Assembly: GCA_902558095.1 (NCBI GenBank)
Contig: CACECP010000004.1
Coordinates: 28,874-92,873, forward strand
DNA: 64,000 nucleotides
Source: an uncultured SAR86 cluster bacterium
Lineage (GTDB): Bacteria > Pseudomonadota > Gammaproteobacteria > Magnimaribacterales > D2472
Direction: 5' to 3'
Positions 20,671 through 23,636 of this stretch are shown one piece after another. The notes under the pieces are model-generated. The model ran no database searches. It was not told the DNA's origin and saw only the letters and a program-made list of their open reading frames with translations. Each line of letters begins with the position of its first letter. Within the stretch, counting starts at the first letter, position 1. The translations under genes were made by a program, and so were the position numbers.

Positions 20671-21087
20671 CTAAAGATCTCCCTCTTTTCGAACTTCACT
20701 TCTTTGAACTTCAAATTTTTCGCCATATCTGGATGCTAGTTTTTCTTGATTTTCACTAATCACTTCATATGGATCAAGGTCAAGCGCAGCGCATGCTGTT
20801 GTCCAATACCACATGATATCTCCAAGTTCTCTTTTCATATGGAAAATATTATCTTCAGATGGAGGCTTGCCTTGAAGAAACATTTTTTTTACTATCTCAA
20901 CAAACTCACCAGTTTCACTTCCTAAGCCAAGAGCAGCAGTTAAAAGACGAGGTGTTTTAATATTTGAATTTTTTTCTATGTCATTAAAGCTTTTTTTCAA
21001 AGCATCTAAGTCAATACTTGGCTCGCTTGTAACTTTTGTAACAAAGTCGGTGTATGTATCAAAGAATTTTTTAATTTCATCGCTCAT
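20671..21087 (-). CDS. MazG-like nucleotide pyrophosphohydrolase
   Basis: LGLGSETGEFVEIVKK...MKRELGDIMWYW (EXXE, EXXD) motif. Confidence 0.8.
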   Translation of the reverse strand: MSDEIKKFFDTYTDFVTKVTSEPSIDLDALKKSFNDIEKNSNIKTPRLLTAALGLGSETGEFVEIVKKMFLQGKPPSEDNIFHMKRELGDIMWYWTTACAALDLDPYEVISENQEKLASRYGEKFEVQRSEVRKEGDL

Positions 21088-21143: not shown

Positions 21144-22133
21144 TTAATAAGGATTTTTATCCCAAGGCAATGATGATATAAATTTTGCTGAAAAGGCCTT
21201 GTTTCCATCAATTATTTTTTTATTTATTAAGTCTACTCCTGATAGAAACTCAAAATCTTTTAATATTCTTTTTTTTCCCAAGCCAAATACTCCCTCAACT
21301 TTGTTATTGATAATATTGTTAAGTTTAGAGATGCTTTTATGTTCTCTTTCATGCCATTTTATTTCTCTTTTTTCGTCTTCCTCATCATCCCAATGAAGCT
21401 TTCTTTTAATTTTAGATATATCAGCATATAAATGAAAAATTGGTACAGCTGGAATATGAAAAATTCCAAAGCCTCGAGTAAAAGCCCTTAGCATTAGAGA
21501 TATTTCCTCACCATAAAAATAAAAATCAGGATCATAGGGAATTTGTTTAACAAACTCTTTTGTAGAAAATAAAAATCCCGCAGCAACTAAGTATCCATGA
21601 CATATCTGTTTATTTGCAATAGAGCCAATTTGTCTGCAGAAATTTTCTTTAATAAACATGGCATCTTCTCTAAAAGCAATAGTATGAGTATTGCTATCAC
21701 TACTATTGAGGTCAAATTTATTATTATCTATATCTAATACATCAAAAGACCGGGGGTAGCATGTAATGATAGGAAGTTGATGCATTTCATAATCAATAGA
21801 CTGAATTCTTTTTATGTATTTTATTAGGTATGAATCCCATCCTTCTTCGAATTGCATGTGAGAATCGATCTGTAAATAATAATCTTCATCATCAAAGCTA
21901 TTTTGTATTCTAGATCTTGCCCAGCACGGCCCTTCTGAATATAAAGGATTAATATGCTCGTATTTTATTTGATTATTAAATTCTATAGATTCTATATTTA
22001 AAGGAATTGATGATTGATCACAAATTCCGAAAGTGAGATTTTTAGGAACATCAGATTTTTCATATGCACTCCTAATCGTTGATTCCAAGAGTGGGTCTTG
22101 ATATGAGGCTATTGATATAAAGATTTTCATCAT
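21144..22133 (-). CDS. GlcNAc-family glycosyltransferase (PF11397/GT60, Skp1 Gnt1-like)
   Basis: IFISIASYQDPLLESTIRSAY, EGPCWARSRIQ, DEDYYLQIDSHMQFEEGWD, YGEEISLMLRAFTRGFGIFHI. Confidence 0.8.
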   Translation of the reverse strand: MMKIFISIASYQDPLLESTIRSAYEKSDVPKNLTFGICDQSSIPLNIESIEFNNQIKYEHINPLYSEGPCWARSRIQNSFDDEDYYLQIDSHMQFEEGWDSYLIKYIKRIQSIDYEMHQLPIITCYPRSFDVLDIDNNKFDLNSSDSNTHTIAFREDAMFIKENFCRQIGSIANKQICHGYLVAAGFLFSTKEFVKQIPYDPDFYFYGEEISLMLRAFTRGFGIFHIPAVPIFHLYADISKIKRKLHWDDEEDEKREIKWHEREHKSISKLNNIINNKVEGVFGLGKKRILKDFEFLSGVDLINKKIIDGNKAFSAKFISSLPWDKNPY

Positions 22134-22147
22134 ACTTTAAAATTAAT

Positions 22148-22171
22148 ATTCAAAAATAGTATAATTTGAAT
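22148..22171. promoter_or_regulatory. Inverted repeat ATTCAAA-N10-TTTGAAT with embedded TATAAT in the divergent glycosyltransferase/P4H promoter
   Basis: Direct reading of the 43-bp intergenic region; TATAAT at 22160-22165. Confidence 0.35.
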
Positions 22172-22176
22172 CGAAA

Positions 22177-22794
22177 ATGAAACCAAAAAAAATATCTGAA
22201 AATGTAACTCTTTATTCTTCAAACCCTGTGGTTTATGTTGTATCTAATTTTCTTTCTGATAAAGAATGCGAGGCCTTTGTTGAGCTTGGAAAAGGTAAAA
22301 TGGAGAGAGCCACGGTCATAACAGACTCAGACCATGAGGTTCACGCAAGCAGAACAAATGATTATTGCTGGTTAGAACATAGTTCAAACGACATTGTTCA
22401 TGAGGTAAGTAAAAGATTTTCTGTATTAGTTCAGATGCCTATAAATAACGCAGAACAATTTCAGCTTGTATATTATGGTCCTGGTAATGAATATAAACCT
22501 CATTTTGATGCCTTTGATAAGACAACAGAAGAAGGGCAGAATAATTGGTTTCCAGGTGGGCAAAGGATGGTTACTGCTTTAGCATACTTAAATGATGTTA
22601 AGGAGGGTGGAGAGACAGACTTTCCAGAGATAAATGTTTCAGTTAAACCTAATAAAGGTGATGTAGTTGTTTTTCATAATTGTATAGAGGGAACAACCGA
22701 GATTAACCCTGACGCACTCCATGCTGGTTCACCAGTTGTTCAAGGTGAGAAATGGGCAGTAAATTTATGGTTTAGGGAAGCCGCAATTTATTAA
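22177..22794 (+). CDS. Prolyl 4-hydroxylase-type 2-oxoglutarate/Fe(II) dioxygenase
   Basis: PHFDAFD (HxD), GGQRMVTALAYLNDVKEGGETDFP, LHAGSPVVQGEKWAVNLWF. Confidence 0.9.
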   Translation: MKPKKISENVTLYSSNPVVYVVSNFLSDKECEAFVELGKGKMERATVITDSDHEVHASRTNDYCWLEHSSNDIVHEVSKRFSVLVQMPINNAEQFQLVYYGPGNEYKPHFDAFDKTTEEGQNNWFPGGQRMVTALAYLNDVKEGGETDFPEINVSVKPNKGDVVVFHNCIEGTTEINPDALHAGSPVVQGEKWAVNLWFREAAIY

Positions 22795-23636
22795 TTGTCT
22801 ATTTTAAGAGATCTTTGACTATCAGCAATATTGTATAAATGTTCTTGTGCCTCTGGCTTTAACTGAGCTACTCCCATTGTTAAAACATCAATGACTGCAG
22901 TATATGCAATTCTTGATGTAACCGGTTTCGAAATTCTATTATTTATTCCAACATCTATAGTCAGTGGAAAATCACATATATTTGCCAAAGGTGTGTTACC
23001 AGGCATAATCCCAATAACTTTAACACCATTTTTCCTAACAATTTTTACACTATCTATTAAAGCTGCAGTTGTGCCTGATTGTGAAATTGCAACAACGACA
23101 TCGTTTTTTTCTAATGAATTTGCTGACATAAATTGAAGATGTGGATCAGATATATATGATGAAGATATTTTTAATCTAAAAAACTTGTGTTGTCCATCCA
23201 TTGCAACTGGAGCAGATCCTCCAAATGCATAAAACTCTACTCTTTCTGCATTTACTAATGTTTCTATGGCATTTTCTAATATGTTTTGATCAATTTGAGA
23301 CCTAACATTTAGAATCTCACTAATAGTCGTATCAAACACCTTTTCACATAATTCATGAATTGAATCATCCTCCTTTATTTCGTACATTACAAAGTAATCA
23401 TCTGCAGCTAATTGTTGGGATAGGTTAATCTTAAGCTCTTGAAATCCAGAGAAGCCAATAGCTTTACAGAATCTTATTAGCGTTGGCTCACTTATACCCA
23501 TGGCGTCAGAGGCCTCAGCAGTCTTCATTGTTATTACAGATTTGGGATCTTTTAAAATAAATTCACCAACAGTTTTTTCAGACTTTCTTAAATCAGGTAG
23601 AGAATTTTTAATTTGCCTCAATAATTTTGTCGACAT
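22791..23636 (-). CDS. hexR: MurR/RpiR-family transcriptional regulator, HexR-like
   Basis: N-terminal HTH (GISEPTLIRFCKAIGFSGFQELKI) plus SIS domain (YAFGGSAPVA, ISQSGTTAALIDSV). Confidence 0.7.
   Translation of the reverse strand: MSTKLLRQIKNSLPDLRKSEKTVGEFILKDPKSVITMKTAEASDAMGISEPTLIRFCKAIGFSGFQELKINLSQQLAADDYFVMYEIKEDDSIHELCEKVFDTTISEILNVRSQIDQNILENAIETLVNAERVEFYAFGGSAPVAMDGQHKFFRLKISSSYISDPHLQFMSANSLEKNDVVVAISQSGTTAALIDSVKIVRKNGVKVIGIMPGNTPLANICDFPLTIDVGINNRISKPVTSRIAYTAVIDVLTMGVAQLKPEAQEHLYNIADSQRSLKIDN

Follow-up and report, generated by a model that had tools for sequence, protein, structure and literature searches.

Our analysis of gene content, motifs and co-occurrence in SAR86 genomes suggests that a prolyl 4-hydroxylase (P4H) and a GT60-type glycosyltransferase (GT), encoded by a divergent gene pair, probably form a hydroxyproline-O-glycosylation module, which would act in the cytosol on a (PAPT)n protein from a slot in a polysaccharide-export locus before that protein is exported. 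We infer the identity of the substrate, the order of the reactions, the acceptor, the sugar, the cytosolic site and the role in capsule or surface glycan from sequence. The pair lies in a stretch of 64,000 nucleotides from an uncultured SAR86 cluster bacterium, hereafter the window, and its divergent arrangement is as given in the preliminary description of this DNA (Table 1).

Table 1. The gene pair and its flanking genes, in window coordinates
Feature	Coordinates	Strand	Basis
MazG-like protein, flank marking other side of presence/absence site	20671..21087	-	PF03819
GT60-type (PF11397) polypeptide HexNAc-transferase, 329 aa	21144..22133	-	Pfam, conserved residues, AF2/Foldseek
Intergenic region of divergent pair, 43 bp	22134..22176	.	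Relatives usually 40-60 bp
Collagen/plant-type prolyl 4-hydroxylase (2OG/Fe(II)), 205 aa	22177..22794	+	PF13640, PDB matches, alignment
RpiR/SIS regulator, flank marking one side of presence/absence site	22791..23636	-	PF01418, PF01380

The hydroxylase was described as an intact 2OG/Fe(II) dioxygenase, and this is borne out by its Pfam match to PF13640 (62.3 bits, cut-off 27, E 9.2e-17) and by the alignment (A2), in which the iron ligands H109, D111 and H182 and the 2OG-binding K192 are present and conserved. In the PDB it matches 3itq (2.4e-33) and the Chlamydomonas P4H (1.5e-31); the profile matches are confined to the P4Hs of B. anthracis, Chlamydomonas, human (C-P4H alpha-2) and chlorovirus, and no PHD2, PPHD or PhyA chain is among the PDB matches of profile A2 at E ≤ 1. 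We take PDB 5c5t to be a prolyl 4-hydroxylase of viral origin. With an HxD...H triad, the 2OG-binding Lys and C-P4H and Cr-P4H as its nearest relatives, the window enzyme is, judged by its motifs and matches, a P4H of the collagen/plant type and not of the PHD/PhyA type. PhyA and PPHD are PHD-type (PMC7864055), and since the window P4H is not, the analogy with the Skp1 pathway covers the order of the enzymes and not the type of hydroxylase. In relatives of family f4, P4Hs with an N-terminal transmembrane segment occur (L075:5316-6101, minus strand; L078; L401), the enzymes of family f1 being soluble.

The GT, earlier described as PF11397/GT60-like, scores 142.7 bits against that family, well above the curated cut-off of 21 (E 2.6e-41), and its catalytic residues are in place on alignment, with D90-S91-H92 (DxH, the GT-A metal motif) and H234 kept in all or nearly all homologues. 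A sequence search for a solved structure related to it found none, and the best structural matches of its AlphaFold (AF2) model (mean pLDDT 95.7) in Foldseek are GT27 polypeptide GalNAc-transferases, GalNAc-T2 and GalNAc-T3 (E 2e-9, TM ~0.55). The GT60 family includes both the Skp1 enzyme and the Golgi mucin-type pp-alpha-GlcNAc-T (PMC8724618); given these mucin-type members and the GT27-like fold, both of which would also suit Thr/Ser acceptors, the acceptor may be either hydroxyproline (Hyp) or Thr. Reading of the sequences agrees with the earlier statement that neither the GT nor the P4H carries an evident signal peptide.

The pair recurs in SAR86 relatives, answering the earlier proposal to check its conservation. 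Among 150 relatives the GT was found in 52 and the P4H in 68, and in about 35 of 90 f1 genomes the two genes are paired and diverge as they do in the window. The two f1 genes are nearly always divergent, usually 40-60 bp apart, and lie mostly at one site, between UvrD-(RpiR) and MazG, which is empty in sister genomes (the RpiR-MazG gap of the pair-less G009 is ~55 bp); RpiR orthologues are present in genomes with and without the pair. Elsewhere in the class few genomes have PF11397 (3 of the 368 others sampled), and the adjacency, recurring across the family, is far beyond chance. Furthermore, the GT was found without the P4H in 0 of 52 genomes, a count that treats G007 and G088, f1 genomes with an apparent GT alone, as contig-edge cases, the contig ending in or at the gene; the P4H occurs without the GT in 18 genomes, and 80 have neither (p 3e-25). 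A GT that is never without the P4H, together with a P4H that is often without the GT, follows the logic of a second step needing the first.

The arrangement varies between genomes. In G034 the P4H and the repeat protein described below are present and there is no GT; beside the P4H its place is taken by a probable second 2OG oxygenase (L063:4771-5589, plus strand; HxD, HWR), for which no Pfam match was found, and the slot protein of this genome carries (PT)n. The P4H of G046 (L069:5567-6202, minus strand) is without H109 and H182, two of the three iron ligands, but keeps an intact GT as its partner. Downstream of the pair in G012 (SAR86A) lies the remnant of a tandem duplication (L066:5762-6907), in which an intact MazG comes after a partial MazG-GT fusion ORF. 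In f4 the P4H is found in 19 of 20 genomes, also at the slot beside UvrD, and the GT is located elsewhere (AlgH-GT-GGT-MscS). We thus rejected transfer of the two genes as a single mobile cassette; the P4H slot, common to f1 and f4, looks ancestral, and the GT may have joined it in f1.

What might the two enzymes act on? We searched the window's own genome by patterns and profiles, with a P[AT]-specific pattern in place of a general PxPxP one, which misleads when sense is left uncontrolled because antisense (GT)n arrays match it too. The genome holds one strong Pro-x array, a (PAPT)n stretch carried by a protein of 158 aa that is encoded on a different contig (C5:68458-68934). Its homologues begin with MAK..K and a hydrophobic segment, followed by LS(P/A)GAIAAAVAAAAA, (PAPT)n or a variant of it, and a T/S-rich or other tail; the overall layout is a signal or anchor segment, then a LSPGAIAAAVAAAAAL segment, then the (PAPT)n stalk and finally a Thr/Ser-rich tail. 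The gene order at this locus is PheT-Wza-YjbH-slot-HU-esterase, with YjbF in genera other than the window's, and the neighbours are recognized as YjbH (PF06082, 2.2e-138), Wza (SLBB/Poly_export) and YjbF (PF11102). The slot is thus in the position of GfcA/YjbE, a small exported protein beside YjbH and Wza and, in some genomes, YjbF. No match of the slot protein to an E. coli YjbE/GfcA family model was found at E ≤ 10 in Pfam or E ≤ 1 in NCBIfam, and the Pfam/NCBIfam matches that the slot protein did have were discarded as low-complexity noise. In sequence and co-occurrence the protein belongs with the AGP-like group, that is, secreted Ala-Pro/Thr-Pro/Ser-Pro repeat proteins accompanied by a P4H.

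Similar arrays are seen in other settings. In several g9 genomes an RNase E/G homologue, a cytosolic protein, has a C-terminal (PAPT)n (L395:1959-4025, plus strand; L396; L334), so PAPT may also serve as a generic linker. The f4 surface proteins of L398 (G101) and L283, of subtilase and cadherin-domain kinds and with lipoprotein-like starts, have (PAPT)n or (PTPE)n linkers directly after a CGGGGG stretch.

The distribution of the repeat protein follows that of the enzymes. Homologues turned up in 25 f1 genomes, every one of them positive for P4H and/or GT, and in 0 of 51 f1 genomes without them. When the f1 loci are sorted by slot version, slot A (PAPT) is present in 26 genomes, all with the pair, and slot B in 34, all without it (Fisher p 1.4e-17), where 11 slot-B proteins were read directly and the rest assigned by a distant YjbH, and where G084, with a truncated YjbH, is a borderline slot A. 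Within the window's genus alone the numbers with and without the pair are 5/0 for slot A against 0/18 for slot B. The slot-B proteins (L433-L448 loci), from genomes without the pair, have Ig-like/HYR domains and end in a long tail of (GT)n or (ST)n. On the UvrD tree, and counting only genomes in which either slot version was seen, all five supported independent contrasts agree (sign test p 0.0625), five being too few for p < 0.05 to be within reach; with missing slots scored as absent, a mean of 3 contrasts are concordant, 0 discordant and 4 uninformative. In G034 and G039 some 240 kb separate the two loci, and linkage thus does not explain their co-occurrence. In G046, the genome whose P4H is minus two ligands, the slot array has decayed to PAPVPTLPPTTVPPTTQ; pair and slot in G072 are similar to those of G046. 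Outside f1, the slot protein of G095 (f4) has (PAPT)n in the same slot, and the slot proteins of G100 (f3) and G120 (f2), genomes in which no P4H was detected, are without the array. Neither slot version was found in 13 genomes with the pair, several of which are incomplete near-copies of slot-A genomes; in one of the 13, G012, which is 91% complete, a search for the capsule locus at contig ends found nothing. In f2 there is no association between P4H and P[AT] repeats (5/12 vs 3/8), and most of the P4Hs there, being ~30% identical, may not be orthologues.

Bacteria outside SAR86 provide a further view of the same partners. In a Burkholderiales MAG (L150) the GT and P4H are fused in a protein of 621 aa, with PF11397 at 56-298 and PF13640 at 507-610, and in a betaproteobacterium (L147) a (PTPE)n protein, a GT and a P4H form one cluster. 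GT60-type genes also adjoin Pro-rich repeat proteins in Halomonas ((PEPT)n, L159) and Ramlibacter ((PS)n, L163), which with L147 amount to 3 of 26 GT loci outside SAR86 and are thus suggestive only. No further full-length GT-P4H fusion was found in the phage and plasmid records searched. Beside this fusion, L150 encodes another PF11397 protein, which is joined to a methyltransferase-like domain (L150:3029-4600, plus strand); an ORF with PPPSTTTVV repeats, whose strand is uncertain, follows. On viral contigs (L205-L213, L190, L215), ~7 kb can contain a PF11397 gene together with one P4H-like gene or two.

Taken together, a GT that is never without the P4H, the fused protein and a shared candidate substrate support a functional link between the enzymes, and as a functional unit the pair is on firmer ground than the preliminary description had it; the enzyme classes and intact active sites of that description also stand, as does the recurrent neighbourhood that it asked for. 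In the mechanism that we favour as the most economical, the P4H would hydroxylate prolines in the Ala-Pro/Thr-Pro tandem repeats, and the GT60-type enzyme would then use UDP-HexNAc to attach HexNAc, presumably GlcNAc, to the hydroxyproline so formed, both modifications being made in the cytosol ahead of export. The main SAR86 substrate would be the small exported repeat protein that stands where GfcA/YjbE would at a polysaccharide-export locus of the YjbH/Wza/(YjbF) type, and the modified protein would be exported with its polysaccharide machinery. It is conceivable, if rather doubtful, that the Hyp-linked HexNAc is also the primer or anchor for the exported polysaccharide, giving a protein-anchored capsule, with the pair gained and lost along with capsule type.

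The two enzymes could instead modify different residues of the PAPT protein, the P4H hydroxylating Pro, which would make a stiffer stalk, and the GT acting as a mucin-type enzyme that places HexNAc on Thr, whether in the Pro-Ala-Pro-Thr unit or in the tail rich in Thr/Ser. The GT27 polypeptide GalNAc-transferases as best folds, the presence of the Golgi pp-alpha-GlcNAc-T in GT60 (PMC8724618), the occurrence of Thr in all slot-A proteins and the GTs of L159 and L163, which lie beside PTPE/PSPS repeat proteins with no P4H within 8 kb, are all consistent with such an arrangement. Against it, the SAR86 GT is never without a P4H, whereas the slot-B proteins, though rich in Thr, are found in genomes that have no pair. 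We regard this as a serious alternative, if a somewhat unlikely one.

Less weight falls on readings in which the PAPT protein is not the target. A shared surface-glycan lifestyle might select for both loci, with the enzymes acting on different molecules, be they proteins, a peptide or the precursor of a glycan; the 13 pair-carrying genomes without a recognized slot protein and the PAPT linkers in several f4 surface proteins would fit, and co-occurrence is not proof of catalysis. We nevertheless consider it improbable, as repeat decay coincides with loss of the P4H active site in G046, and as the fusion and the triple cluster with a Pro-rich protein are found in unrelated bacteria. The preliminary description had looked to a cytosolic target, and the pair might modify a folded protein of the cytosol, such as EF-Tu or a regulator like Skp1, as an oxygen-sensing module. 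Enzymes with no evident signal peptides are compatible with this, as is the cytosolic modification of protist Skp1 by a P4H and then a GT60 enzyme (PMC8724618), but the P4H is not of the PHD/PhyA type, with neither PhyA nor PPHD matched at E ≤ 1, and a universal EF-Tu cannot explain the exceptionless tracking of a capsule-slot allele. Hydroxylase type and distribution thus disfavour both targets, the evidence pointing to an exported repeat protein, and we judge the folded-target reading very improbable.

Plants, algae and protists are known to O-glycosylate hydroxyproline. The open PMC papers searched describe no pathway in bacteria dedicated to it, in keeping with the earlier remark that a bacterial Hyp-GlcNAc pathway is not established. 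The favoured module comes with a specific candidate substrate and lends itself to a clear genetic test at two loci, what it predicts for mass spectrometry is simple, and it bears on the surface chemistry of an abundant group of ocean bacteria.

Among known systems, the Skp1 PhyA-Gnt1 pathway of Dictyostelium and Toxoplasma resembles what is predicted for the SAR86 pair in using a P4H and a GT60-type HexNAc-transferase in sequence, both soluble and cytosolic, and enzyme fusions occur there too (PMC8724618). PhyA, on the other hand, is a PHD-type enzyme that modifies a single Pro in a folded protein, Skp1 being an SCF subunit of eukaryotes (PMC8724618), while the SAR86 P4H is collagen/plant-type and its predicted substrate a disordered exported repeat. 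None of the further Skp1-pathway transferases was found in the pair's neighbourhood, and with a P4H of another type the pair does not belong to that pathway. PPHD, the EF-Tu hydroxylase, is likewise a bacterial protein prolyl hydroxylase but PHD-type. The E. coli group-4 capsule loci gfcABCDE/yjbEFGH share the placement of the slot protein beside YjbH (GfcD), Wza (GfcE) and sometimes YjbF (GfcB); no P4H or GT60 enzyme is described for them, whereas the SAR86 slot protein has Pro-Ala-Pro-Thr arrays. GfcA of E. coli is small, Thr-rich and a proposed glycan-modified export substrate (PMC8592465), which makes a glycosylated SAR86 counterpart in the same position plausible, and our findings bear on the role of GfcA/YjbE in capsule operons, unknown in E. 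coli (PMC8592465). Finally, the Hyp-rich glycoproteins of plants and green algae (AGP, extensin) are alike in P4H type, the Chlamydomonas P4H (2jig/3gze) being among the best matches, and in the alternating Ala-Pro/Thr-Pro motif. Their glycans in plants differ in starting with Gal or Ara and in being made in the ER/Golgi by other transferases, the SAR86 system being GT60-type and presumably cytosolic. If the primer or anchor reading were true, the product would be a bacterial proteoglycan of the arabinogalactan-protein type; more generally, the evidence suggests a bacterial counterpart of plant Hyp-rich glycoproteins in the streamlined SAR86 of the ocean.
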